DNA of 64,000 nucleotides from Janthinobacterium sp. UMAB-56 (lineage in GTDB: Bacteria; Pseudomonadota; Gammaproteobacteria; Burkholderiales; Burkholderiaceae_D). Positions within the stretch are counted from its first letter, which is position 1. Every line of letters begins with the position of its first letter. The stretch spans positions 1 to 64,000 of the forward strand of contig NZ_LT607652.1 in the NCBI RefSeq assembly GCF_900095265.1, given 5' to 3'. Position numbers and translations under genes: made by a program. Under the pieces are notes generated by a model. That model had not been told where the DNA came from. It worked only from the letters and a program-made list of their open reading frames with translations, and did no database searches. This document shows, piece by piece, positions 48,130-61,355 of this stretch.

Positions 48130-48517
48130 CCGCGCAGTAAAAGTTGAGGGCCATGTTTGCCAAGAGAAAATTGCGCCGAATTTCTGTTACATTATGAGTC
48201 TGAAGAAGCGTTTGCGAGTCTTGAGTTAAATAAGCGCTTAAGTGTCAATTTTTAACGATCTACAATCGCTACCGGAGATTGCCACATAATCTACCGTATA
48301 AGTGACATGTGCCGCCGGCAAACTGGTCGTCGGCATTTTTGCCGCGTTAGCGTCTGCGCCGGCGAGAGGACTTAGTGGAGGGAGGCCATTCAAGAGGACG
48401 TCGGCCAAGTTGCGAATGGCAGGGCGTCCCTGGGCAAACATGCCGGCAATTCGTCGGTAAATTGCTTGAGGGCCCTCCATGCAGCCCAACACTTTGCCGA
48501 CCGCCGGAGGTAGCTCA
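48130..48517. other. Gap without confident gene
   Basis: Nearly 390 bases between the element debris and the BLUF gene. A minus-strand frame ending at 48238 (GMFAQGRPAIRNLADVLLNG) has some coding character but no sensible start outside the BLUF gene, so I do not call it. The right end carries the ribosome-binding site GGAGG of the BLUF gene. Confidence 0.45.
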
Positions 48518-48925
48518 ATGATTCGACTTCTATATCTCAGCAGTGCCGTCCCCTTAATATCAGATAAGCAAGTGCAGGACATCCTGCTTTCCTCGCGTCG
48601 AAATAATTCGGCCAACTGTATCACTGGTATTCTAATCCACGGTGGCGGACTGTTCATGCAAGTTTTAGAAGGGCCGGAACAGGAGGTGCTACGGAAGTAT
48701 GTGAAGATTCTGGATGATCCCAGACACAGCGGCGCACAGATTCTGTATATTTCGCCAGCGACTAATCGGATTTTTGAGAAATGGTCGATGGGGGGTATCG
48801 AGAGCGATCCATTGCAATTTCAATATATATCCAAATTGCGCGCTCGCCGTCTAGAGGCCATCGATGTAAATACGTTCACGGATACGATGCGCGAGTTTGC
48901 AAAGAGGCTGAGAGACGCGAAGTAG
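48518..48925 (+). CDS. Stand-alone BLUF photoreceptor 1
   Basis: 135-residue blue-light sensor using FAD. The flavin-switch residues align by spacing with AppA: Tyr6 (LLYLSS), Asn30 (RRNNSANCITG), Gln48 (LFMQVLEG), Trp89 and Met91 (KWSMGG). All are conserved, so it should be photoactive. A short C-terminal helix follows the domain and no output domain is attached, so it must signal by protein contact. The ATG at 48518 has GGAGG 8 bases upstream. It converges on the cyclic-di-GMP gene at 49069, with 143 bases between and no clear terminator. It is AT-richer than the core genes around. Confidence 0.93.
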   Translation: MIRLLYLSSAVPLISDKQVQDILLSSRRNNSANCITGILIHGGGLFMQVLEGPEQEVLRKYVKILDDPRHSGAQILYISPATNRIFEKWSMGGIESDPLQFQYISKLRARRLEAIDVNTFTDTMREFAKRLRDAK

Positions 48926-49068
48926 GGTTTGACCAGAAAACCCTGCTTGTGGCGGCCGTTGGTCAATGCCCAGGAGTAAGCTGGATACTCAGCATCTCAG
49001 CTTTGATTAGCAGCACCTCAGGCGCAAGCGAACATCTGGCAGGTGGCCTATATGCAGTACTTCTTACG

Positions 49069-50817
49069 CTAAGCCATTTTACTTAACCATTCCTCAATTG
49101 CCTCTCCGGTGAGAGGTCGGCTATATAGATACCCCTGGCCCTTGTCGCATCCCTGCGCGTAAACCACCGCTGCTTGCTGTGCAGTCTCTATTCCCTCCGC
49201 GACTGTATTCATGCCTAAGCTACGCGCAACTTTCACAGTTGCTTCTATTAAAACTTCATGATGGCGGCTGGTACCGGCTAAGGTAACAAATGAACGGTCA
49301 ATCTTGACGGTATCGACGGGCAATAGGTGCAGGCTCGATAAGGAGGAATAACCGGTTCCAAAATCATCCAGGGCGAGCTTGACCCCAAGCTCTTTCAGAC
49401 GGAGTAACTGTTCTTGGATGTCTTTTCCCTGAGCCGCCAAACTTTCGGTAATCTCCAACTGCAATTTATCTGGCTCCATTCCGCTGGCTGCGAGAATGGC
49501 ATTAACCTTGCAGCACAAATCTTCTTGGCTGAGCTGCGCACGTGATAAATTTACTGCAAGTAGCCGGGGTGCTCGCGTTCCCAATCGCTGCTCCCAGCGC
49601 ACAAAATCGCGGCATGCCATTTCCAACACTTTTTCACCGATTGCTCCGATCAGGCCACAGTCCTCGGCGATGCCGATGAACTCCACGGGACCGACTACCC
49701 CTCGTACCGGATGTTGCCACCTTACCAAGGCTTCGACGCCTGCAACCGGATCAAACTTCCCGCCAGCCAAGAGCCCTACCACAGGCTGATATAAATTATA
49801 TAATTCTCCTCGCTCTATTGCATATCGGAGATCTGTTTCCATGCCTCCGCGCAACAACGCATCCTCGCGCATCTGCGGTCTAAATACCTCAAAACGATTC
49901 CCTCCTCCGGCCTTGGCGACGGCCATGGCAATCGCAGCGTCGCGAAGCAGATCATCAGCTTCATACGCTTCAGAGTCTAGTATCCTTACACCTGCGCTGA
50001 ACGTACACGTGAGCTCATGATTCCCTATACGGTATGGTTCGCTCAGGCGGTCAAGCAATCGCGCAGCAATACGTGATGCAACGCTACGATCAGCAAGTCC
50101 ATCCAATATCACTGCGAACTCGTCGCCTCCCACTCTTGTTGTCAGCTCAGCCGAAGTACGCTTTACAGGTGGCCGGCTACTCGATCTTACTGTCGTGCGC
50201 AGGCGTTCCGCCACAAGAACAATGACCTGATCTCCGACCTCATTGCCCAGGGTGTCATTGATCTGCTTAAAACGATCAAAGTTGATGAACAGCACAGCGC
50301 AATCATCGCCGCTGGGGGCACGTGTGCGCTGTGTCATCGTATGTAACAATTCGAGTGCGCCCGCGCGATTAGGCAACTGTGTCAACGCATCCAGCTTTGC
50401 TGCACTCGCGAGACGACTAGCCAGTAGGCGTTGCTCTCGTACTACCTCATGAGTAGCGTCCAGTAATATTGCCATTAAGCGATTGCCATCAACTTTAAGT
50501 AGGCCTAGTGACAATACTGCGGGACTGTCAGGATGATGTCGTTGATTCTCATTTACCGCGACCCTCATACCCTCGCAGATCAGTCCTTGCTCAGGTTTGA
50601 AGTTAGTGCACAGGCGCTGCAGATCCGGTGCATACGGCTGTAGTACCTGAAAAAAATTGACAAGATCCCCATCCTGAGAAAGCGGCATTAACAATTGTGA
50701 GGCCATAGGGTTGAGCATCTCTATGCTGCCGTCTACTTGCAGCTGTATGAGCGCAACAGGAGCACGGTACAAAAACTGTATTAAAGCCTCATAGGCACTG
50801 TCACTTTCACCGCTCAT
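49069..50817 (-). CDS. PAS-GGDEF-EAL cyclic-di-GMP enzyme
   Basis: 582 residues, no membrane segment. The N-terminal PAS domain (about 8-125) closely resembles the first PAS of the next gene. The GGDEF domain has an intact VGGDEFAVIL (230-234) but no RxxD inhibitory site. The EAL domain has EAL at 362-364 (GVEALVRWQHP), ITES, DDFGTGYSS (484 on), VKIDRSF and AEGIET, so all metal and catalytic residues appear present. It should hydrolyse c-di-GMP and could also make it. AGGAG lies 6 bases before the ATG, and its first 11 bases overlap the upstream cyclase gene. It is last in the PYP operon. Confidence 0.95.
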   Translation of the reverse strand: MSGESDSAYEALIQFLYRAPVALIQLQVDGSIEMLNPMASQLLMPLSQDGDLVNFFQVLQPYAPDLQRLCTNFKPEQGLICEGMRVAVNENQRHHPDSPAVLSLGLLKVDGNRLMAILLDATHEVVREQRLLASRLASAAKLDALTQLPNRAGALELLHTMTQRTRAPSGDDCAVLFINFDRFKQINDTLGNEVGDQVIVLVAERLRTTVRSSSRPPVKRTSAELTTRVGGDEFAVILDGLADRSVASRIAARLLDRLSEPYRIGNHELTCTFSAGVRILDSEAYEADDLLRDAAIAMAVAKAGGGNRFEVFRPQMREDALLRGGMETDLRYAIERGELYNLYQPVVGLLAGGKFDPVAGVEALVRWQHPVRGVVGPVEFIGIAEDCGLIGAIGEKVLEMACRDFVRWEQRLGTRAPRLLAVNLSRAQLSQEDLCCKVNAILAASGMEPDKLQLEITESLAAQGKDIQEQLLRLKELGVKLALDDFGTGYSSLSSLHLLPVDTVKIDRSFVTLAGTSRHHEVLIEATVKVARSLGMNTVAEGIETAQQAAVVYAQGCDKGQGYLYSRPLTGEAIEEWLSKMA

Positions 50818-52168
50818 GGCCTACTCCTATATGTTTCGTAGGAAAATCAGCTGCATCACTGTCCAAGAATGCGACTTGGTTTCGACCTCGGCGTTTCGCT
50901 GCATACAGGGCTTGGTCGGCGCGCTTCATCAGTCCGTCGAATCCCGTCAGGCTGTCGTCCATTGCCGCAACGCCTATGCTAATAGTGTATGCGATGACAT
51001 GCTGTTCATATATGGCGGGAATGAGTTGTACTTGTGCCCTTAGACGCTCCGCCACCGCCATTGCATCGGTCAGATCCACAGAGGGCAAAATCACCGCAAA
51101 TTCTTCGCCTCCGATGCGCGCCAGTACGTCAACCTGTCGACATACGCTCTTCATCGTGGCAGCCAGATGGCACAGCACTGCATCGCCTGCCGGGTGACCG
51201 TATTGGTCGTTGATCGCCTTGAAATGGTCGGCATCGAGCATGATCAACGACACAGGCCGCAATGCGTTTTTGCGGCGCAGTATCTCCAGATCTGCAGCGT
51301 CGAAAAAAGCGCGGCGGTTTGACAGGCCGGTGAGGTGGTCGCAATAAGCCGCCTTGCGAAGATTCTCGCTGGCATCACGCTTATCTGAAATGTCCCGAAT
51401 GATCATGCAATAGGCAGCTTCTTCATCGTTCATCTGAATGGGCTGAGAGCTCTCATCGATACGGATGGGCAGTGGCGAGATCATTGCGCTACCCCAGAAT
51501 TCTCGGCCGTCGGCGCGTAGCCGCGCTCCCTCATCCAAGGCCCAGCCGTTCTCGTCTGCCTCCCGCAAACGGTCCAGTTGCTGTTCTGGGGTGGTCGCCT
51601 CGGAGGGGTAAAAAATTGCATATGGCTGCCCCTTGATGCTCGGTGTATGGCCGGTGACCCGTCCAATGCTTTCATTCCAGGACTCGATGCGACCTCGCTT
51701 GTCTAAGCTAACCAACGCGTAGTCGGCAATATTAGTCATGATCGCGTTAAGCCAAGCATCCGTCGTGCGCAGCTGTCGTTCGCGCCTGTCCTGCAGGGTG
51801 ATATCGTTCAGTACCGCCATCAGCCGCTCCGCATCCAGCTTCAGCATACTCAACGATAGCACCTGCGGGCCGCTAGCCGCGCCATCCGCGTGCAGGTAAA
51901 GCCGGGTTGCGTCGCAGATTTGGCCATAGTTTGCACAAAACTGACTGCACTGCAGTTGCAGGTCGGGTGCAACCGGCGCGAGAGCATCGAACAGATTGGT
52001 CAGCTCGCCGTCTCGGCTCAGCGGCATCAGCAGTTGGGCCGAAAGCGGATTGAGCATGATGATGGTACCGTCCGACGAGATTTGAACCAGGCCTACCGGC
52101 GCCATGTACAGAAACTGAAGCAATGCTTCGTATTCCTGAGACTCCTCAGAATGGATGAGGCTGCTCAT
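50807..52168 (-). CDS. PAS-PAS-GGDEF diguanylate cyclase
   Basis: 453 residues, soluble. PAS1 (about 12-125; YEALLQFLYMAPVGLVQIS, then MLNPLSAQLLMPLSRDGEL) is related to the PAS of the following gene. PAS2 spans about 136-262 (ESWNESIGRVTGHTP through EFWGSAMISPLP). The GGDEF domain has active-site IGGEEFAVIL (353-357) and an RxxD product-inhibition site (RQVD, 344-347), so it should be an active, feedback-inhibited cyclase. The ATG at 52168 overlaps the PYP stop by 4 bases (ATGA), which argues for stoichiometric coupling with PYP. A longer open frame to 52342 only overlaps the PYP gene. Confidence 0.95.
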   Translation of the reverse strand: MSSLIHSEESQEYEALLQFLYMAPVGLVQISSDGTIIMLNPLSAQLLMPLSRDGELTNLFDALAPVAPDLQLQCSQFCANYGQICDATRLYLHADGAASGPQVLSLSMLKLDAERLMAVLNDITLQDRRERQLRTTDAWLNAIMTNIADYALVSLDKRGRIESWNESIGRVTGHTPSIKGQPYAIFYPSEATTPEQQLDRLREADENGWALDEGARLRADGREFWGSAMISPLPIRIDESSQPIQMNDEEAAYCMIIRDISDKRDASENLRKAAYCDHLTGLSNRRAFFDAADLEILRRKNALRPVSLIMLDADHFKAINDQYGHPAGDAVLCHLAATMKSVCRQVDVLARIGGEEFAVILPSVDLTDAMAVAERLRAQVQLIPAIYEQHVIAYTISIGVAAMDDSLTGFDGLMKRADQALYAAKRRGRNQVAFLDSDAADFPTKHIGVGHER

Positions 52169-52554
52169 AAGCGGTGCACCAGGACGTAGGATAGATCGGC
52201 CGCTGGATCCGACAGCAAACGCAGCTTGACCCTTGTGGGACGCATGCGCAGTGTCAGCACATAGTTGATCGTGTCGTCCAGGGCTTGCCCGCTTTCGTGC
52301 GCGTCCACGAACCGTTGCGCGACGAGGAAATTGTTCATGCACGGCGCGATCACCATGAACAGGTCCTGCAGCAGCACGCGCTCCACGCTGAGTCCGGCCG
52401 CCTTCGATTCAAAGGTGTTATAGCGCTGAACCCGACCGTCCTTTCCGAAGCCGATGACACCGAAGCCGAGCGCATTCAGCGCAACTTCATCCATCGTTTC
52501 CAGCAGCATGGTGATGCCAGGCTGGTCAAACTGTAATTCTTCATGCATGTTCAT
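52165..52554 (-). CDS. pyp: Photoactive yellow protein
   Basis: 129 residues, against 125 for Halorhodospira PYP. The PAS-type blue-light sensor binds p-coumarate by a thioester. Aligned with the classic protein: Tyr42 and Glu46 correspond to Tyr45 and Glu49 (RYNTFESKAAG), chromophore Cys69 to Cys72 (VIAPCMNN), Met100 to Met104, and MTPTKVKV to MRPTRVKL. Thr50 is Ala53 and the Arg52 gate is Leu55, which may shift colour and recovery rate. The start at 52554 has AGGAG upstream and gives the family length; a longer frame to 52626 is less likely. It lies between the ligase that activates its chromophore and a diguanylate cyclase. Confidence 0.93.
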   Translation of the reverse strand: MNMHEELQFDQPGITMLLETMDEVALNALGFGVIGFGKDGRVQRYNTFESKAAGLSVERVLLQDLFMVIAPCMNNFLVAQRFVDAHESGQALDDTINYVLTLRMRPTRVKLRLLSDPAADLSYVLVHRL

Positions 52555-52673
52555 TGTTGCCAACTCCTGTACGGATCGCAAGAGGATCTCTGTTATCGTG
52601 TTCATCAAGCTGTATGGTGTCTCCAAACCTCACCCAGCAGCGCGTCCATACAAGCGTGGCTTGTCCATCCATA

Positions 52674-53933
52674 TTACGCTCCATCTGCCCCTGGACCATC
52701 GCTGATGATCCAGTCGGTAAGCTTGCCCTGCAGGTTCACTGGCAGAGCGGCACCGACCGTGAACGACACCGGGCGCGCCGCAGGCGGCAAGCGCTCCCTG
52801 ACCCAGGACGCCAACTGGTCCGGCAGGCGCTCGGCCCCGCCGAAGTGCTCGGCCACCACGAACGCCTTCAGCCGGTGCCCTTCGTCCGCACGCATCAGCC
52901 GCACGTGGGCCTCGCTTACGCCAGGATGGCGCTTGAGCATCTCTGCCACCTGCGCCGGATAAACATTCCTGCCACCAACCTGCACTGCCTGGTCGCGCCG
53001 GCCCACGGGGACGAAACTATTCTCGCCCTGCCAGTCGATCTGATCCTGGCAGTCGCAGCGCAGTTCGGTGCCGTCGGGTGCCTGACGCAGCAAAGTGTCG
53101 GTGGACGCAGAGCGCCGCCAGTGCGGCAGCAAGACATAGGGCCGGCGCGCATCGGTGCGCCAGCCCACACCTGCGGTTTCGCTGCTACCGTATACTTCTG
53201 CCATATACAAGCCGGACGCGGTCAGTTGCAGTGCCACGTCGCGCGGGCATGGCGCGGTTGACGTCACGCCCGCAACACCACCAGGCCAACTGGGCGCGTG
53301 TCGGGCAACGGCGGACCAAAGTTCCGGGTAGCCGATGATCACGTCCCCCTCCGTGGCCTGCGCGATCAACTCCATCGGAAGCATATTTCTCGCATCGATC
53401 AGCGAGGCGCGCACCGGGCCGCATGCCAGTGGGAGTAGCACGCTGAACAGGAAGCCATAAATGTGATGCGCAGGAACGGTATAGATGACGCGCCGCGCAT
53501 GCGGCAGTTGTGCTGCGAAAAAGCATGCCTCTTGCCATAGCATGTCGAGTTTGTGGGGGCAGCACTTGGGCACGCCGCTGCTGCCGGAGGTTTTAAAGCT
53601 CAGCTCGGCGCTGTAATGGTCCAGGCCGTTACTGGCGCAGGCGATCCACTGCTCCAGCGTCGTGCACCCCAGCAACGCTTGGTCGGCGCCACTCTCGTGC
53701 AGATGTAAACAAGCGGAGATTGCCGTCGCAAGGGCGTAGCGCTCCAGTGAGTCGATACCTAAGTCAGCTTCCAGCTGCAGCCCTCCCGGCCACGGCAACG
53801 ACGGCAAACCGGCGCTTCCGCGCCGCATCATGATCAATTCAGCGTGCATGAAGTCCGACACAAAACGGCGCAGCAACTCCCCGTCATGCCACCAGTTGGC
53901 GCAGTGCCGGTATGCTGCTTGAGTCTGTTTCAC
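52674..53933 (-). CDS. pcl: p-Coumarate ligase for PYP chromophore, with ACP-like N-terminus
   Basis: 419-residue ANL-family adenylating enzyme, shorter than plant 4CL (about 540) but like PYP-linked pCL. Motifs: P-loop TSGSSGVPK (115-123), YGSSETAG (248-255), GRRDQAVQVGGRNVYP (311-326) and C-terminal catalytic Lys404 (LQGKLTDW). It should activate p-coumarate for transfer to the PYP cysteine. Residues 18-100 look like an acyl carrier protein: helix 1, then LEADLGIDSLERYAL with Ser62 in the phosphopantetheine position, and TTLEQWIACA as last helix. It starts with GTG at 53933, overlapping the tetR stop by 4 bases; 119 bases separate it from pyp. Confidence 0.85.
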   Translation of the reverse strand: MKQTQAAYRHCANWWHDGELLRRFVSDFMHAELIMMRRGSAGLPSLPWPGGLQLEADLGIDSLERYALATAISACLHLHESGADQALLGCTTLEQWIACASNGLDHYSAELSFKTSGSSGVPKCCPHKLDMLWQEACFFAAQLPHARRVIYTVPAHHIYGFLFSVLLPLACGPVRASLIDARNMLPMELIAQATEGDVIIGYPELWSAVARHAPSWPGGVAGVTSTAPCPRDVALQLTASGLYMAEVYGSSETAGVGWRTDARRPYVLLPHWRRSASTDTLLRQAPDGTELRCDCQDQIDWQGENSFVPVGRRDQAVQVGGRNVYPAQVAEMLKRHPGVSEAHVRLMRADEGHRLKAFVVAEHFGGAERLPDQLASWVRERLPPAARPVSFTVGAALPVNLQGKLTDWIISDGPGADGA

Positions 53934-54535
53934 TTTAAGCCTTCAAGCGCTACTCTGAGCATGTGGCGGACTATATCGTCAGGCGCCATCTTGGTGTATT
54001 TCTGCAAATACTCGACCGCAGGGTCACAGGTTCGAGCGTAATAGCTGAATAATATAACGTCGGTGGGCAGTTCTCGGTTCAACTGCCCCTGCTGCTGTGC
54101 CAGCTTCACCAAGGCCTCGAGCTGCCGGTTCAGTTTCATTACTCGCAGCATGTACTTCACATTGCGGATCAACATGTCGCGCACGTGCGGGCTGGTCGAT
54201 GGCAGGAACGGCAGTCCGCCGTTCAGGCGCACACGCAACGCCCACTCCAGCAGGGACGACAATTTCTGCAGGGGAGTAAGCGCAGTGTCCAGCGCGGCGA
54301 CATAATCGAGCGCGCCGTCAAGCAGCCGTATCAGCGCTTCACCGACTAGCTCTTCCTTTGATTTAAAGTGCTTGTAAAGGCTGGGCTTGGAGATGCCAAC
54401 GGTACCGGCGACGTCATCCATGGTCATCAAGTCATAGCCTTTTTGGCTCAGTACCGCCGTTGCGGCATCAAGGATAGCGTTCTCGCGCAGCTTAAATGCT
54501 TGATTTTTAAAGCTTAGTCTTGGAAGGATACTCAT
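53930..54535 (-). CDS. TetR-family regulator of the PYP operon (inferred)
   Basis: 201 residues. The N-terminal helix-turn-helix is AILDAATAVLSQKGYDLMTM, then DDVAGTVGISKPSLYKHFKSKEEL. The C-terminal ligand domain (ALDYVAALDTALTPLQKLSSLLEW and on) does not reveal its ligand. It is the first gene of the leftward run tetR-pcl-pyp-GGDEF-GGDEF/EAL and overlaps pcl by GTGA. A 12-base palindrome TACTAATCAGTA lies 14 bases before its start, suggesting autoregulation and possibly control of the divergent FAD-oxidoreductase operon. p-Coumarate, its CoA ester or a fatty acid are candidate ligands; none is shown by the sequence. Confidence 0.93.
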   Translation of the reverse strand: MSILPRLSFKNQAFKLRENAILDAATAVLSQKGYDLMTMDDVAGTVGISKPSLYKHFKSKEELVGEALIRLLDGALDYVAALDTALTPLQKLSSLLEWALRVRLNGGLPFLPSTSPHVRDMLIRNVKYMLRVMKLNRQLEALVKLAQQQGQLNRELPTDVILFSYYARTCDPAVEYLQKYTKMAPDDIVRHMLRVALEGLK

Positions 54536-54548
54536 TGGTAATTTTCGA

Positions 54549-54560
54549 TACTAATCAGTA
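54549..54560. promoter_or_regulatory. Candidate TetR operator
   Basis: TACT-AATC-AGTA, arms perfectly inverted around 4 bases, in the 95-base gap between the divergent tetR and FAD-oxidoreductase genes. The surrounding sequence is AT-rich, as promoters are. It is a plausible TetR binding site by position and form; no second copy was seen. Confidence 0.5.
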
Positions 54561-54630
54561 GCTTTTATTATTTGGAGGTAGTAATATTAGCACGTCAGTA
54601 AAAAATGGTCAGAATAATCAACAAAACGAC

Positions 54631-55914
54631 ATGAGCCCGCCACGCAAACGTATCGCCATCATCGGCTCCGGCATTTCAGGCCTGGCCAGCGCCTATTTTC
54701 TCAACCGCAAGCACGACGTCGTGCTATTCGAGTCCGCCGGCTATCTCGGCGGCCACACCAACACCGTGGACGTGACGCTGGAAGGGCGCTGCCATGGTGT
54801 CGATACGGGCTTTTTGGTCTATAACGAGCGGACCTATCCCAACCTTGTGGCGCTTTTCGACGAGCTCGGTGTAGATAGTATCGCCAGCGACATGTCGTTC
54901 GGCGTGTCCATGGACGGCGGCGCGCTGGAATGGGCAGGCGCAAGCCTAGATACCGTGTTCGCGCAGCGCGTCAACGTCGGTTCACCTACCTTCCTGCTCA
55001 TGCTGTGGGACATCCTGCATTTCAACCGCAACGCGGAGCGTTTTCTGCAGTTGTCGAACCAGACCCCGCTGACGCTGGGACAACTTCTGCAGCAGGAGAG
55101 CTATGGCGCGCGCTTCCGCGACGCCTACCTGCTGCCGATGGCGGCGGCAATCTGGTCCAGTTCGCCAAGCGATATCTTGCAATTTCCTGCGGCGACCTTT
55201 TTGCGTTTCTGTCTCAACCACGGTCTGTTGCAGGTCAACGACCGTCCACAGTGGCGCACGGTCGCAGGCGGAGCCTGCCACTATGTCAACAAGATCGCCG
55301 CCACGCTGCCTGACGTTCGTCTGAACACGCCGGTGTATTCTGTGCGGCGCAGCGCGGGCGGCGTTCAGGTGTGGAGCAGCAGCGCGGTCGCCGACGAGTT
55401 CGATGCCGTCGTGTTCGCCACCCACGCGCCGACCACGCTGGCCATGCTGCACGACGCCAGCCAGACAGAGCGCGCCATCCTTGGCGGCGTGCGCTACCAG
55501 CCCAACACGGCCTACCTGCACACAGACGCGAATCTTATGCCAAGGCGGCGCAAGGTCTGGTCGGCCTGGAACTACCTGGCGGGCGCACAGTCGGACGGGC
55601 AGCGTCCAGTGTGCGTGAGCTACTGGCTGAACCAGTTGCAGGCATTGCCATTCGATGCACCGGTGATCGTAACGCTCAACCCGCACACTCTGCCGGCCGA
55701 CAGCAAACTGCTGGCGAAGTTCAACTACGCCCACCCGGTGATGGACCTGGCCACCGTACGCGCGCAGCAGCAGCTGGCGCAGATCCAGGGCAAGGGCGGT
55801 GCCTGGTTCGCCGGCGCCTGGACCGGCTATGGCTTCCACGAAGACGGCCTGAAATCGGCACTGCGCATCTCCGCAGCATTTGACACGGCGCCAGTATGGA
55901 GTGTGCTGTCATGA
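54631..55914 (+). CDS. FAD-dependent amine-oxidase-like oxidoreductase
   Basis: 427 residues. The dinucleotide-binding motif is IAIIGSGISGLASAYFL at the N-terminus, and the C-terminal FAD segment is WFAGAWTGYGFHEDGLKSA. A central VDTGFLVYNERTYPNLVALF and PMAAAIWSSSPSDILQFPAATF match the family found beside DUF1365 and cyclopropane-synthase genes in stress clusters. It may act on membrane lipids or a carotenoid-like substrate. It is first in a run in which each stop overlaps the next start, and it is divergent from tetR. The exact reaction is unknown. Confidence 0.9.
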   Translation: MSPPRKRIAIIGSGISGLASAYFLNRKHDVVLFESAGYLGGHTNTVDVTLEGRCHGVDTGFLVYNERTYPNLVALFDELGVDSIASDMSFGVSMDGGALEWAGASLDTVFAQRVNVGSPTFLLMLWDILHFNRNAERFLQLSNQTPLTLGQLLQQESYGARFRDAYLLPMAAAIWSSSPSDILQFPAATFLRFCLNHGLLQVNDRPQWRTVAGGACHYVNKIAATLPDVRLNTPVYSVRRSAGGVQVWSSSAVADEFDAVVFATHAPTTLAMLHDASQTERAILGGVRYQPNTAYLHTDANLMPRRRKVWSAWNYLAGAQSDGQRPVCVSYWLNQLQALPFDAPVIVTLNPHTLPADSKLLAKFNYAHPVMDLATVRAQQQLAQIQGKGGAWFAGAWTGYGFHEDGLKSALRISAAFDTAPVWSVLS

Positions 55915-56687
55915 AGCAGCCGGCCGCCCAACTGTTGCACGGCCAGGTGACGCATACGCGCCTGCGTCCGGTGCCGCACCGCTTCGTCTATCCGCTATTT
56001 TATGTGCGCTTGAACCTGGCCCGGCTGGACGAATGTCATTCTCGCTGGTTCGGCGTGGACCGCTTGCGGCCGCTGTCGATACGGCGGCGCGACTATGGCC
56101 CGCGCGATGGCTCCAGTCTGGAACAATGGATACGCGCTCTGCTGCGCGACCACCACATCGATGCGGATGGCGAAATCTGGCTGCAAACCTTTCCCCGCGT
56201 TGCTGGCTATGTATTTAATCCCGTCAGCTTCTGGCATTGCCACGACGCGGCTGGCCAGCTGCGCGTCGTGCTGGCCGAGGTTAACAACACCTTCGGCGAA
56301 AGCCACCGCTACCTGATGCGCATCGCCCACACGGAGGGTGGCTCGTCCACGGCCACTGCTGTCAAGCAGATGCACGTGTCGCCGTTCTGCGAGGTGCGGG
56401 GACACTACCGCTTCCGCTTCCGCCTGGACGGTGCCAGCCACTGCACCGGGCTTGATTATCACGACGGCGACGGCGTGCTACTGCGCACCGCGCTTAGCGG
56501 CCGCCCCGTGCCGATGACCGACAGCGCATTGGCTTTTGCCCTGCTGAGCTATCCGCTTCTGGGGCTGGGCATCGTGTTCCGCATTCACTGGCAGGCGTTC
56601 AGGCTCTGGCTGAAACACGTGCCGTTTTTCAGCAAGCCGCCTGCCCCCGCCCATCAAACCACCGTGCACCAGGAGACTGTCCGATGA
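55911..56687 (+). CDS. DUF1365 family protein
   Basis: 258 residues. The family start LLHGQVTHTRLRPVPHRFVYPLFYVRLNL is clear, with later RVAGYVFNPVSFWHCHDAAGQLRVVLAEVNNTFGE and KQMHVSPFCEVRGHYRFRF. DUF1365 proteins nearly always sit between an FAD oxidoreductase and a cyclopropane-fatty-acid synthase-like gene, as here, and are thought to take part in fatty-acid modification. Its start overlaps the upstream stop and its stop overlaps the cfa start, both by 4 bases. Confidence 0.92.
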   Translation: MKQPAAQLLHGQVTHTRLRPVPHRFVYPLFYVRLNLARLDECHSRWFGVDRLRPLSIRRRDYGPRDGSSLEQWIRALLRDHHIDADGEIWLQTFPRVAGYVFNPVSFWHCHDAAGQLRVVLAEVNNTFGESHRYLMRIAHTEGGSSTATAVKQMHVSPFCEVRGHYRFRFRLDGASHCTGLDYHDGDGVLLRTALSGRPVPMTDSALAFALLSYPLLGLGIVFRIHWQAFRLWLKHVPFFSKPPAPAHQTTVHQETVR

Positions 56688-57889
56688 ATCGCACCTTGTC
56701 CACCGCCACGCTGTCCGCCCCCGCTGGCGCCCGGCTATTCCTCAGGCTACTGAACAATATCCGTCACGGGCACCTGGAACTGATCACCCCCTGCGATACG
56801 CGCATGGTGTTCGGCGACGCCCATGCGTCTTCCGGCGCGACGCTCAAGCTGCACGACTGGCGCGCCTGCCAGCGTATCCTGCGCGCGGGTGACATCGGCT
56901 TTGCCGAGGCCTACGCGGCTGGCTGGGCCAGCACGCCCGACCTGACCGCGCTGTTGCGCCTGGCGCTGCGCAACGAAGCGTCGCTGGACCAGTTGGTGTT
57001 CGGCGGCGCGCTGGCGCGCTGCTGGTACCGGCTGCGGCACTGGCTGCGCCCCAACACGCGCAAGGGCAGCCAGCGCAATATCCACGCGCATTACGATATT
57101 GGCAACAACTTCTACCAGTTCTGGCTCGATCCCAGCTGGACGTATTCCAGCGCGCTGTTCGACGGCGACTACGAGCTGACGCTGCAGGACGCCCAGCGGC
57201 GCAAGTACCAGCGTATCATCGACACGCTACAACTACGGCCCGGTCAGTGTGTGCTGGAAATCGGCTGCGGCTGGGGCGGCTTTGCTGAACATGCGGCACA
57301 GCAAGGGATCCACGTGCATGGCGTGACGATTTCGCCGTCGCAGTTGGAGGTGGCGCAGCGCCGCGTGCAGGAGCTGGGGCTGGCCGACCGCGTGCAGCTG
57401 GAGCTGTGCGATTACCGCGACCTGCGTGGCGAGTACGACGCCGTGGTGTCGATTGAAATGTTCGAGGCCGTGGGTGAGCAGTACTGGCAGCAGTATTTCC
57501 ATACCGTCGCTGCGCGGTTGAAGCCCGGTGCACAGGCGCTGGTACAGTCGATCACCATCGGTGAACAGTATTTTGCGCGTTACCGCAGCAGCACCGATTT
57601 CATCCAGCAGTACATTTTCCCCGGCGGAATGCTGCCCAGTGTCGAACGATTCGAACGCCAGGCGGCCCGCAGCGGCCTGCGCCCAGTCGAACGCCACGCC
57701 TTCGGCCGCGACTACGCCGAAACGCTGCGCCGCTGGGATGCTCGTTGCCGCCTGCACCATCCGCAGATCGCGGGCCTGGGCTTCGATGAACACTTCATGC
57801 GGATATGGCATATGTACTTTGCCTATTGCGAGGCTGCCTTTGACGAAGGGCGAACCGATGTTGTTCAATTCCTGCTCCAGAAGGCCTAG
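56684..57889 (+). CDS. cfa: Cyclopropane-fatty-acyl-phospholipid synthase-like methyltransferase
   Basis: 401-residue SAM-dependent enzyme. SAM motif I is VLEIGCGWGGFAEHAAQQ (about 189-206). Preceding segments HAHYDIGNNFYQFWLDPSWTYSSALF and later VSIEMFEAVGEQYWQQYF and YIFPGGMLPS are standard for the CFA family. It methylates unsaturated phospholipid chains, to cyclopropane or perhaps to furan or methylated fatty acids in this cluster type. Such modification protects membranes from acid or singlet-oxygen damage. The co-location with FAD oxidoreductase and DUF1365 is typical. Confidence 0.93.
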   Translation: MNRTLSTATLSAPAGARLFLRLLNNIRHGHLELITPCDTRMVFGDAHASSGATLKLHDWRACQRILRAGDIGFAEAYAAGWASTPDLTALLRLALRNEASLDQLVFGGALARCWYRLRHWLRPNTRKGSQRNIHAHYDIGNNFYQFWLDPSWTYSSALFDGDYELTLQDAQRRKYQRIIDTLQLRPGQCVLEIGCGWGGFAEHAAQQGIHVHGVTISPSQLEVAQRRVQELGLADRVQLELCDYRDLRGEYDAVVSIEMFEAVGEQYWQQYFHTVAARLKPGAQALVQSITIGEQYFARYRSSTDFIQQYIFPGGMLPSVERFERQAARSGLRPVERHAFGRDYAETLRRWDARCRLHHPQIAGLGFDEHFMRIWHMYFAYCEAAFDEGRTDVVQFLLQKA

Positions 57890-57948
57890 TCGGCCATGAC
57901 GTCGCTGTGGCGCCTAGGCCCGGCCACGCCGATGTTCAGGAGACGCGC

Positions 57949-58449
57949 ATGCGCACCCTGAATCGGCCCATCGCTGATCACTTATTTTTTGCTGGCAAAA
58001 TGAACGATACTGAACCACTCCTGACATGGTATGCCTCGCTGACCCCGGACACCGTTGGACGGGCGGGCGAATTCTACGCGGCGGACGCGCAGTTTCGCGA
58101 TCCGTTCAACAATGTTTACGGCGTTGCAGCGATAGAGGCGATTTTCCGCCATATGTTTGACCACACCGAGCAGCCGCGCTTCATCATCGGCGAGCGCGTG
58201 GTGCAGGGCGACCAGGCCTTCGTCACCTGGCTATTCGTGTTCCACTTGCGCGGCGTGCCGTATCAAATCTCCGGCGGCAGCCATTTGCGTTTCAATGTGG
58301 ACGGCCTGGTCGTGATGCACCGCGACTACTGGGATGCCGCCGAAGAGCTGCTGGAAAAGCTGCCACTGATCGGCGCCCCGATCCGATGGCTGCGCGGCCG
58401 CTTCCGCGTGCCGTTGCCCGATGCAGCAACAAAGGGGAGGAAGGCATGA
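57949..58449 (+). CDS. SnoaL/NTF2-like protein
   Basis: 166 residues. It has the NTF2-like fold pattern: FYAADAQFRDPFNNVYGVAAIEAIFRHMF, EQPRFIIGERVVQGDQAFVTWLF and HLRFNVDGLVVMHRDYWDAAEEL. SnoaL-type proteins act as small isomerases, hydrolases or binding proteins. In light/stress clusters they accompany the cfa genes. The ATG at 57949 has CAGGAGA upstream; ATG 58000 (MNDTEPLLTWYASL) would give a more typical length and is a real alternative. The stop overlaps the TspO start by 4 bases. Confidence 0.85.
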   Translation: MRTLNRPIADHLFFAGKMNDTEPLLTWYASLTPDTVGRAGEFYAADAQFRDPFNNVYGVAAIEAIFRHMFDHTEQPRFIIGERVVQGDQAFVTWLFVFHLRGVPYQISGGSHLRFNVDGLVVMHRDYWDAAEELLEKLPLIGAPIRWLRGRFRVPLPDAATKGRKA

Positions 58450-58946
58450 ACGCGGCCCAATCCATCAAGCCGGGCGCATTTCTTCAGTTGGCCGGCTGGA
58501 TCGCGCTGACCGCCGCTTTTGCAGCGCTGGGCGCATTCGCCTCCGTTCACGCGGCCGTGTTTTATGCACAGCTGGACCGCCCCGGCTGGGCGCCGCCGGC
58601 CTGGCTGTTCGGTCCCGTGTGGAGCTTGCTGTATCTGATGATGGCCATCGCCGCCTGGCGCGTCGGTCGTACCGCTGCAAGCCGCGTCTACCCGGCGCTG
58701 CTGCTTTATCTGGCACAGCTGGCGGTCAACGCACTGTGGAGCTGGCTATTCTTTGCCTGGCATCTGGGCGCGGCGGCGTTTGCGTGCATCGTTGTGTTAT
58801 GGCTGATGATCGCGGCGACCATCGTACTGTTCGGCCGCCACGAACGCCTCGCCGCCATGCTGCTATGGCCCTATCTGGCATGGGTCAGCTTCGCCGGGGG
58901 GCTGTGCTTCAGTATCTGGCAGCGCAACCCGTCCCTGCTCGGCTAA
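58446..58946 (+). CDS. tspO: TspO/MBR family tryptophan-rich sensory protein
   Basis: 166 residues with five membrane helices, rich in Trp. Family motifs are YAQLDRPGWAPPAWLFGPVWSLLYLMMAIAAW, then LYLAQLAVNALWSWLFFAWHLGAAAF, and the last helix LLWPYLAWVSFAGGLCFSIWQRN. TspO proteins bind porphyrins and link to light and oxygen responses in purple bacteria. GGGGAGGAAGG lies just before the ATG at 58446, which overlaps the upstream stop. In this island it may guard against porphyrin-driven photo-oxidation, an inference. Confidence 0.94.
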   Translation: MNAAQSIKPGAFLQLAGWIALTAAFAALGAFASVHAAVFYAQLDRPGWAPPAWLFGPVWSLLYLMMAIAAWRVGRTAASRVYPALLLYLAQLAVNALWSWLFFAWHLGAAAFACIVVLWLMIAATIVLFGRHERLAAMLLWPYLAWVSFAGGLCFSIWQRNPSLLG

Positions 58947-58981
58947 ACGCTACAACGCACTATCAACAACAAGGAATTCCC

Positions 58982-59689
58982 ATGACGAATGAAAAGCAGC
59001 TTGACTACCGGGTCGCCGGCACGCCTGCCTCCGCACGCATACGCGCCCGCTTGATGGCAAGCGGTGTCCGTTTCCACGCCAACGACAATATCGCCGACTA
59101 CATCGAAAGCGGCGAAATGGATGAACTGCTGGACGAGGTCAGCCTGCGCATGCAGGGCGTGCTGGAGAGTCTGGTGATCGACACCGCCAACGACCACAAC
59201 TCGCAGGACACAGCGCGCCGCGTGGCCAAGATGTATTTGCTGGAAGTGTTCGGCGGGCGTTACATCCCCCCACCGCCCGTGACAGAATTTCCCAACGCCG
59301 CCAACCTGAACGAGCTGATGATCATCGGTCCGATCACCGTGCGCAGCGCCTGTTCGCACCACTTGTGCCCGGTCATGGGCAAAGTATGGATAGGTGTGAT
59401 GCCCAACCAGCACTCCAACCTGATTGGCCTGTCGAAGTATGCGCGGCTGGCGGGATGGATCATGAGCCGCCCGCAGATCCAGGAAGAAGCCGTGGTCCAG
59501 CTGGCCGAACTGCTGCAGGAAAAGGTCAAGCCGGACGGTTTGGCCGTGATCATGGAGGCCGATCACTTCTGCATGCAGTGGCGTGGCGTTAAAGACAATG
59601 ACGCGCGTATGATCAATAGCGTCATGCACGGTTCTTTCCTCAAAGACCCCGCGCTACGGCGGGAGTTCCTCTCATTGATCAAACGCTGA
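58982..59689 (+). CDS. folE: GTP cyclohydrolase I
   Basis: 235 residues. It opens the imidazole ring of GTP to dihydroneopterin triphosphate, the first step to folate and pterins. Zinc ligands are Cys124, His127 and Cys197 (SACSHHLCP and ADHFCMQW). Other conserved parts are GRYIPPPPVTEFPN, NLIGLSKYARLAGWIMSRPQ and VMHGSFLKDPALRREFL. It differs from the E. coli type in the active-site loop, as do folE copies in stress clusters. Such copies could raise pterin supply for photolyase or cryptochrome antennas. It lies 35 bases after tspO and 22 bases before a BLUF gene. Confidence 0.93.
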   Translation: MTNEKQLDYRVAGTPASARIRARLMASGVRFHANDNIADYIESGEMDELLDEVSLRMQGVLESLVIDTANDHNSQDTARRVAKMYLLEVFGGRYIPPPPVTEFPNAANLNELMIIGPITVRSACSHHLCPVMGKVWIGVMPNQHSNLIGLSKYARLAGWIMSRPQIQEEAVVQLAELLQEKVKPDGLAVIMEADHFCMQWRGVKDNDARMINSVMHGSFLKDPALRREFLSLIKR

Positions 59690-59711
59690 TACACCGTCCA
59701 AAGGAGTTCCT

Positions 59712-60137
59712 ATGCTCGTCCGTTTACTCTATGCCAGCCGCGCTGCGGGCACTATCGATGTCGCTACCATCGGCGCCATCCTTCAGCAGTCTCGCCGCCA
59801 CAATCCGCCCAGCGGCATAACCGGCGTCCTATGCCACAGCGAACGGTTTTACCTGCAGCTGATCGAAGGCGGACGCGAACAGGTCAATATCCTGTATGCC
59901 CGCATTCTCGCCGATGCACGGCACACAGGAGTAACACTGCTGCACTATGAAGAAATGAGCGAGCGTCGCTACGCTGGCTGGACGATGGGACAGACCAACC
60001 TCGACAAGCTTAACCCGGGCACGCTGCTGCGGTACTCGATGCTGCCCGAGTTCGATCCGTTCGCACTTGTCGGAGACAGTTCGCTCTCGCTGGTCGACGA
60101 GTTGATGGCTGGCGCTGCGGTCCTTGGTCGGGCATAA
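59712..60137 (+). CDS. Stand-alone BLUF photoreceptor 2
   Basis: 141 residues. All flavin-switch positions fit the AppA spacing: Tyr7 (LLYASRA), Asn31 (SRRHNPPSGITG), Gln49 (FYLQLIEG), Trp90 and Met92 (YAGWTMG). The domain is followed by a 40-residue C-terminal helix region (PEFDPFALVGDSSLSLVDELM). No output domain is fused. AGGAG lies 6 bases before the ATG. It is last in the fatty-acid/TspO/folE run and 234 bases upstream of the MerR gene. It differs markedly from BLUF 1, so it is not a recent duplicate. Confidence 0.94.
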   Translation: MLVRLLYASRAAGTIDVATIGAILQQSRRHNPPSGITGVLCHSERFYLQLIEGGREQVNILYARILADARHTGVTLLHYEEMSERRYAGWTMGQTNLDKLNPGTLLRYSMLPEFDPFALVGDSSLSLVDELMAGAAVLGRA

Positions 60138-60350
60138 GGGCGACGCGCGATCACATCTGCACGGAAGCTGTCGAGGCATCGGCCGCTTGCGGCGGGTACA
60201 TGTTCAATGTTGTTGCATTTAACTCGAAAAACAGTCGAGTCTGTTCCCGGCTCATGGGGAGTTGGTGTGGCGATGAACTGGATTTGTAGCGGTGTCTTCA
60301 GCGATTTTCGTCTGTTATCTGCCGATTGCACGATATAATCAGGGATTATA
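60138..60350. other. Intergenic region upstream of merR
   Basis: Contains a small inverted repeat (ACTCGA/TCGAGT, 60222-60227 and 60235-60240) without a T tract, so not a convincing terminator, and a TATAAT -10 box at 60334-60339 just before the MerR gene. I see no ORF. Confidence 0.5.
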
Positions 60351-60367
60351 GGTTCATTCTCGGTTCG
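60351..60367 (+). promoter_or_regulatory. GGTTCA-N5-GGTTCG direct repeat, site 1
   Basis: GGTTCA at 60351-60356 and GGTTCG at 60362-60367, 11 bases apart start to start, that is one helix turn. It lies between a TATAAT box (60334-60339) and the MerR start at 60372, where a bound protein would block transcription. The same repeat occurs at 63427 and, inverted, at 63970. Confidence 0.6.
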
Positions 60368-60371
60368 ATTT

Positions 60372-61355
60372 ATGGTGCAATCTTTACTTCCTGCTCAGGT
60401 CGACAATAGTCAGCCTGTTCAATATCGCAGCGGGGTCGCCGCCAGACTTGCTGGCTTGCCGGTTGAAACGTTGCGCGTGTGGGAGCGTCGTTACGGCATC
60501 TCCGACACCGGCCGTAGCGCGCATGGCCAGCGTTTGTATTCCGAGGAGCAGGTTCGTCGGCTGCGGCTGATGAAGCAACTGGTCGACCAGGGTCATCCAA
60601 TTGGCGCGCTGGCGAAGCTGCAGTTGGAACAATTAGGCCAGTTTGCGTTGGTACCCGAGCCTGGTGTGCCTTTGCAGCCTTTGCAACCTATGCGCCTGGC
60701 ACTGATGGGCACGGCACTGGCGCGACGCCTGGCCGTCGGCGGGCGAGAGTTACTGGCGCTCGATATCGTCGCCCACTTTCAGAATCTGGACGAGGCGGCA
60801 GCGACATGGCCCGGCACCGGCGCGCAACTGCTGTTGATGGAAATATCGGAACTCGATGAGCGCGTGGTGCCGGCGATTGGCGCGCTGCGTCAAAAACTGG
60901 GGATGGCGGTGGTGGTGTTGTACCGTTTCGGCGCCAGCGCGACCATACGCCAGTTGCGCGCTCAGGGCTGCCTGGTTGCGCGCGTACCCAATGATGTTGC
61001 AGAAATAGTGTTGCTGTGCCAGGCGGCGCTGGCGGCGTTGCCCTTGGCGCAAGCTCAGCTTGCGCGGCAGCGGCCGGCGGCGCCGGCCCCGCGCCGCTTC
61101 GACGACCGGGCGTTGGCGGAGCTGGCGGCGGCCAGCAGTACGGTCCACTGTGAATGCCCGCGCCATCTGACGGAGATACTGTTGATGATCAACAGCTTTG
61201 AGCGCTACAGCGAGCAATGCGCGTCGCGCAATGTGGCCGACGCGCTGTTGCATGAGCAGTTGGGGCACGCCGCCGCCGCTGCCCGCATGGTCCTGGAGGA
61301 AGCGCTGTTGCGGCTTGCTCGGGCGGAAGCCCTGCCTTTGCCGGCCGGCCTGTAA
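60372..61355 (+). CDS. MerR-family regulator, LitR/CarH-like
   Basis: 327 residues. The winged-helix MerR domain (about 17-90) reads RSGVAARLAGLPVETLRVWERRYG, then YSEEQVRRLRLMKQLVDQGHPIGALAKL. The following domain (about 106-225) has a Rossmann-like pattern (MRLALMGTALARRL, AQLLLMEISELDE, GMAVVVLYRFGASA) in the place of the B12-binding domain of CarH/LitR, but I see no E/D-x-H-x-x-G cobalamin ligand. It may therefore need a photoreceptor partner, such as the BLUF or PYP proteins nearby. No Shine-Dalgarno precedes the ATG, and the leader may be short. It likely controls this island. Confidence 0.88.
   Translation: MVQSLLPAQVDNSQPVQYRSGVAARLAGLPVETLRVWERRYGISDTGRSAHGQRLYSEEQVRRLRLMKQLVDQGHPIGALAKLQLEQLGQFALVPEPGVPLQPLQPMRLALMGTALARRLAVGGRELLALDIVAHFQNLDEAAATWPGTGAQLLLMEISELDERVVPAIGALRQKLGMAVVVLYRFGASATIRQLRAQGCLVARVPNDVAEIVLLCQAALAALPLAQAQLARQRPAAPAPRRFDDRALAELAAASSTVHCECPRHLTEILLMINSFERYSEQCASRNVADALLHEQLGHAAAAARMVLEEALLRLARAEALPLPAGL

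Follow-up and report, generated by a model that had tools for sequence, protein, structure and literature searches.

Stand-alone photoactive yellow proteins (PYPs) of clade C occur mostly in Burkholderiales and often adjoin GGDEF genes, and the class was called uncharacterised in 2022 (Xing, Gumerov and Zhulin, PMC9664959); a later paper predicted 113 pyp operons, 29 of which contain GGDEF (Dohmen et al. 2025, PMC12826048). Both papers described the way in which free-standing PYPs pass on their signal as unknown, and the partner of the founding PYP of H. halophila was still unidentified in 2026 (PMC13250908); here and below, each paper cited by its PMC number is drawn on in part. We analyzed the first 64,000 nucleotides (nt) of contig NZ_LT607652.1 (the window) from Janthinobacterium sp. 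UMAB-56, a 6.1-Mb assembly (GCF_900095265.1) whose same-genus relatives include Janthinobacterium lividum PAMC 25724. The window carries a minus-strand operon for a PYP of the clade C type, its chromophore ligase, and two cyclic di-GMP (c-di-GMP) enzymes, both of which begin with the same domain. This domain follows PYP genes across many genomes, and comparison of the sequences leads us to regard it as the probable, though by no means certain, receiver of the light signal of clade C PYP.

The clade C PYPs of PMC9664959 are, like ours, stand-alone proteins with GGDEF/EAL neighbours and the same residue hallmarks, but the portions of that paper used here name no shared partner domain and give the route to the partners as unknown. 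The operons of PMC12826048 also combine pyp with pcl and GGDEF/EAL genes, whereas domains are reported at the GGDEF/EAL level in the portions used, with no PYP-linked N-terminal domain. The PYP of Idiomarina loihiensis (van der Horst 2009, via PMC9664959) stands alone beside a GGDEF protein and has a biofilm output but belongs to clade A. In the PYP-phytochrome fusions Ppr and Ppd (PMC9664959, PMC12826048), PYP controls a kinase or a GGDEF/EAL output by covalent fusion, while the PYP of our locus is a separate protein. PmSB-LOV, which acts with a class II LitR (PMC9758184), is a short stand-alone PAS-fold photoreceptor whose signal passes in trans to an effector encoded next to it; there, however, a LOV protein is paired with a transcription factor, here a PYP with c-di-GMP enzymes.

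The first-pass annotation of this DNA had contrasted the stand-alone PYP of this operon with the known PYP fusions. The annotation's gene order, overlaps, chromophore residues, catalytic motifs and expectation of a conserved order all held, but novelty of the operon idea as such is rejected, as stand-alone PYPs with GGDEF/EAL enzymes already appear in PMC9664959 and PMC12826048, and the operon framed in this way adds one member to a group already described. The annotation had overlooked the N-terminal domain shared by the two enzymes, for which we found no published mention (Meyer 2012, van der Horst 2009 and the supplements lie outside this statement).

Organization of the pyp operon

The five genes run in the order tetR (53930-54535), pcl (52674-53933), pyp (52165-52554), a diguanylate cyclase (DGC) gene (50807-52168), and a gene for a GGDEF-EAL protein (49069-50817), all on the minus strand. 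This order and the overlaps first reported agree with the coordinates of all five genes. The GTG start of pcl sits inside the tetR stop (GTGA), the ATG start of the DGC gene sits inside the pyp stop (ATGA), and the two enzyme genes overlap by 11 nt; pcl and pyp are separated by 119 nt, hence not all junctions overlap. The best pyp start is ATG 52554, which is preceded by AGGAG, and ATG 52605 is possible.

A domain shared by both enzymes is linked to PYP

The DGC and the GGDEF-EAL protein both begin with the same domain of about 114 amino acids, hereafter the partner domain. Copy 1 spans about residues 10-136 of the DGC (51761-52141, minus strand), and copy 2 lies at 50414-50802 on the same strand (profile match E 8e-53); the two copies are 50% identical. 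A set of 64 distinct pyp loci was assembled from the window, 59 regions of a family sample, and four loci on named contigs (L055 to L058), L060 being dropped because it comes from the same genome as L055. In all 64 the domain lies 3′ of pyp on the same strand, 10-131 nt past the pyp stop, and a possible in-frame start codon overlaps that stop in 41. The idea that the gene order might be peculiar to this genome and due to chance, which the first-pass annotation had kept as a reservation, is ruled out by the same arrangement at pyp loci far beyond this genome (64/64).

The family sample comprised 392 genomes, with PYP in 95, the domain in 96, and both in 95. The domain thus occurs in 95/95 genomes with PYP and 1/297 without (Fisher p 1e-91, a value not corrected for kinship). 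Nearly every strong PYP gene (98/99) has a domain copy within 1 kb, and the remaining one ends at a contig edge; 92 of the 98 were scored by a listed copy within that distance (distance only), and six were read directly (L087, L099, L189-L192). Conversely, a strong PYP is located no more than 4 kb away from 146 of the 150 domain matches listed.

The linkage reaches beyond the family. An order sample of 399 genomes gave PYP matches in 12 and domain matches in 12, with 11 shared; the domain was present in 11/11 genomes with a close PYP and adjacent in 7/7 PYP matches outside the family. Of the two unshared genomes, G125 lacks the domain and its PYPs are all distant, and G297 shows just a weak 38-residue match. 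Among 72,556 plasmid records, the domain was found in 11 and PYP in 13, and all 11 domain records, from alpha- and betaproteobacterial hosts, also carry PYP. A phylum sample of 398 genomes gave domain matches in four; two are strong and belong to the family, and the two weak ones (32 and 29 bits) lie in 3-kb loci without PYP, the PYP search not having extended across that sample.

As a control, the rest of the same DGC (PAS-GGDEF) was searched in the same way. It matched in 18/18 relatives and 49 times in this genome, where the partner domain was found at two places only, both in the pyp operon. As the remainder of the DGC is widespread and the domain is restricted, the linkage is a property of the N-terminal domain and not of GGDEF proteins. 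This bears on the possibility that PYP and the c-di-GMP enzymes merely share a transcript, without direct coupling, and that PYP has its target elsewhere. A plasmid, CP099603, in which a close PYP stands without the domain beside other genes, would fit such an ordinary operon, but the domain is specific to PYP loci while GGDEF genes in general are numerous and for the most part unlinked, and we consider this explanation very unlikely.

Two domain copies are present in 52/64 loci and one in 12/64. In a tree of 116 rows, first and second copies are split on one branch, 52 versus 52, with support 100/98 and 12 ungrouped; few columns and some long branches underlie this tree. The split indicates an old duplication, both copies of which were kept. 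The domain might alternatively pair the cyclase with the GGDEF-EAL protein in a hetero-oligomer, with PYP acting on the complex elsewhere. Its presence on both proteins in those 52 loci is what such pairing would produce; the 12 loci with a single copy nevertheless have PYP, and plasmid loci often have one copy, which makes this arrangement quite improbable.

The partner domain is predicted to adopt a PAS fold

The first-pass annotation had read the two enzymes as PAS-PAS-GGDEF and PAS-GGDEF-EAL. Both descriptions proved right, though Pfam detects only the second PAS of the DGC and no PAS in the GGDEF-EAL protein. The Pfam PAS model has 71 matches in this genome and none at either domain copy, and when 28 domain members were scanned, no Pfam family matched more than one of them (best E 0.0066). 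AlphaFold, run on nine domain sequences, predicted a PAS fold flanked by helices (mean pLDDT, predicted local distance difference test, 82), from which the domain probably belongs to the PAS superfamily. The solved folds nearest to the model are LOV and other PAS domains, flavin- and heme-binding ones among them, and include PYP. The domain profile matched no PDB sequence up to E 1, and profile comparison gave no sign that the domain is a PYP derivative with a lost cysteine.

The partner domain is found on GGDEF, GGDEF-EAL, HD, histidine-kinase and PAS-only proteins. A Geobacteraceae metagenome-assembled genome encodes two PYPs with two domain copies behind them, one belonging to an HD-domain protein and the other to a PAS-histidine kinase; other loci have PAS-GGDEF or GGDEF-EAL outputs, and some have a PAS-only protein.

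Ligand binding is common among PAS domains, and the N-terminal PAS could sense a ligand of its own (redox state, a coenzyme A (CoA) thioester, c-di-GMP or a metabolite) without contacting PYP, the genes travelling together as one ecological switch. The flavin- and heme-binding domains among the nearest folds would agree with this, as would a genome of the same genus (G461) in which the domain occurs without PYP. However, the restriction to PYP genomes, the two kept copies, the varied outputs and the wide range of hosts would be unusual in a ligand sensor of a general kind, and the LOV cysteine motif was not seen in the aligned domain rows. We judge an own-ligand sensor unlikely.

The PYP and its chromophore ligase

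The PYP can be aligned with PYPs of known structure (1mzu, E 4e-12; 1gsv, E 2e-11) and keeps Tyr42, Glu46, Cys69 and Met100 of the founding protein; its Tyr45, Glu49 and Cys72 align with the first three. Cys72, named as the chromophore cysteine in the first-pass annotation, follows from the start at ATG 52554 and corresponds to Cys69 of H. halophila. The three residues Cys69, Tyr42 and Glu46, by which the portion of PMC9664959 used here recognizes the PYP family, are all present, and the gate Arg52 is replaced by Leu in the alignment. Pfam sees the protein as a weak PAS only (E 0.061). Against TIGR02373, an equivalog model for classical PYP, it scores 73.9 bits (E 1.1e-20), below the curated cut-off of 143.05, and it was therefore filed under the PYP family and not as a TIGR02373 equivalog. 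The ligase matches TIGR02372 with 284 bits over residues 19-405 (E 1.4e-84), under the cut-off of 334.7, and AMP-binding with E 8e-12; no equivalog is claimed, and its role is likely that of a PYP-type 4-coumarate--CoA ligase.

Clade C PYPs have lost Phe92, Phe96 and Trp119 and conserve Met100, according to the portion of PMC9664959 used. The alignment shows Phe96 replaced by Leu100 and Met100 kept as Met104, and the same offset gives Ile96 for Phe92 and Tyr123 for Trp119. These marks place the protein in clade C. When 37 clade C PYPs were compared with six other PYPs, the positions conserved in the former only were clustered in two stretches, 75-84 and 100-113, which correspond to the helix after the chromophore cysteine and to the Met100 loop. 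We presume that both regions move on illumination. They are a candidate interface and serve as a lead, not as evidence of contact.

Several clade C PYPs in plasmid records L174 to L184 are labelled "phosphonate transporter" or "hypothetical protein" by RefSeq/GenBank. Genomes and plasmids with a clade C PYP can have, in addition, a distant PYP that adjoins a CoA ligase of its own (L023, G380:C1, where a MerR gene is also present; L176; L184), and this coexistence suggests two parallel PYP pathways.

The c-di-GMP enzymes and a proposed mechanism

The DGC consists of the partner domain, a second PAS domain (51386-51763; PAS_9, E 5e-5; TIGR00229, 42.6 bits against a cut-off of 22.9), and a GGDEF catalytic domain (50867-51358; TIGR00254, E 7e-49), all on the minus strand. 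The GGDEF match is E 2e-46, with PF00990 above its cut-off, and the translation contains RQVD-N5-GGEEF, that is, an RxxD I-site and the GGEEF motif expected of a diguanylate cyclase. The second enzyme joins the partner domain to a GGDEF domain without an I-site (E 6e-34) and to an EAL domain (PF00563, E 3.5e-64) in which EALVRW and DDFGTG, the motifs predictive of an EAL phosphodiesterase, are both present. The same division recurs in the 64-locus set, where the I-site is found in 46/46 GG-only proteins versus 1/44 GGDEF-EAL proteins and DDFG.G is kept in 54/54 EAL proteins; in 31/64 loci a GG[DE]EF protein comes first and a GGDEF-EAL protein next.

We propose that pcl, a free clade C PYP and two c-di-GMP enzymes are produced as one unit. 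PCL would load p-coumarate onto Cys72, and blue light would switch the PYP. The N-terminal PAS-fold domain on both enzymes would be the docking and receiving domain, which PYP may bind or release through a PAS-PAS contact. The balance of the I-site cyclase against the EAL phosphodiesterase would then shift and, with it, the choice between biofilm and motility, in a direction that the proposal leaves unspecified; we infer a light effect on c-di-GMP from this scheme. More generally, we lean towards viewing the domain as a portable PAS receiver that offers light-activated PYP a docking site in trans and that occurs on cyclases, phosphodiesterases, an HD protein and a histidine kinase. With similar reservation, we find it plausible on balance that PYP and receiver form a two-piece, mix-and-match blue-light switch, through which a single sensor at this locus would drive the synthesis of c-di-GMP as well as its breakdown.

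A domain that accompanies an entire class of PYP across hosts and outputs offers a concrete candidate protein for receipt of the PYP signal. If the proposal is true, two separable proteins would also provide a means of switching c-di-GMP or kinases by light. Natural comparisons are on hand in the deletion locus of G461, the orphan copies and the counter-example CP099603.

Several observations weigh against PYP-to-domain signalling. In G461, the one PYP-less family genome of the 297 that has the domain, the domain-bearing DGC is present together with tetR and the divergent oxidoreductase operon, and pcl, pyp and the EAL gene were not found there; a DGC with the domain can therefore outlive PYP, which counts against strict dependence. 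Three of the four remaining domain matches among the 150 listed are far from a strong PYP, yet in PYP-bearing genomes. CP099603 (L174) encodes a PYP 55% identical to ours, with no domain at E 1e-3 in the 10 kb read or in the rest of the plasmid. The GG[DE]EF motif is absent after the first domain copy in 15/64 loci, at least four of which (L079, L100, L117 and L118) have a recognisable but altered GGDEF domain. A full-length DGC structure predicted from a three-row alignment was unusable (pLDDT 36; pTM, predicted template modelling score, 0.30). Remote relatives could be missed, since the domain profile was seeded from PYP loci only and the genome search scored 10-11 candidates per genome. Finally, the adjacency of PYP and domain could come from joint inheritance rather than contact.

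Near the PYP gene of CP099603 lie genes for a TetR regulator, a BLUF protein, a histidine kinase and a large CheB-CheR-PAS-kinase protein, and this PYP may use another partner. The second plasmid PYP record without the domain, from Niveispirillum, holds a distant PYP (27%), near which the domain profile finds nothing.

Regulation, chromophore source and neighbouring genes

The TetR-family regulator was identified by PF00440 (TetR_N, E 4e-17), and no NCBIfam equivalog was reached. Scans of 48400-55000 gave four promoters against a shuffled mean of 3.8 and eight terminators against 5.8, about one standard deviation above, and none is claimed. A divergent gap of 95 bp (54536-54630) separates tetR, on the minus strand, from a plus-strand operon and contains two inverted repeats, which are possible TetR operators. 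The first, TACTAATCAGTA (54549-54560), fits TACTRATYAGTA in 6/7 aligned related loci and is one base off in L169; the second, TAGTAATATTA (54579-54589), is unchanged in 7/7. The TGTACA site of the class II LitR system was not seen in this gap.

A dedicated tyrosine ammonia-lyase was ruled out as chromophore source: the sole match in the genome to PF00221 (aromatic ammonia-lyase) exceeds the cut-off for HutH, histidine ammonia-lyase (640.9 versus 539.15 bits). As this is the only aromatic ammonia-lyase, p-coumarate may come from outside and be taken up.

The divergent operon (54631-61355, plus strand) encodes a flavin adenine dinucleotide (FAD) oxidoreductase, a DUF1365 protein, a CMAS-like protein, a SnoaL protein, a FolE-domain protein, a BLUF protein and a MerR regulator. 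Its content resembles the light-induced gene list of the class II LitR system of Pseudomonas, as given in the portion of PMC9758184 used; Pfam finds no B12-binding domain in the MerR protein (60372-61355). The FolE-domain protein, of 422 amino acids (58421-59689, plus strand), has GTP cyclohydrolase I in its C-terminal 178 residues, and its first ~240 are without a Pfam match. The BLUF blue-light sensor gene of this operon (59712-60137, plus strand) has a counterpart at 48479-48925, also on the plus strand, so that BLUF genes lie on both sides of the pyp operon within 12 kb and three blue-light sensors of two kinds stand together.

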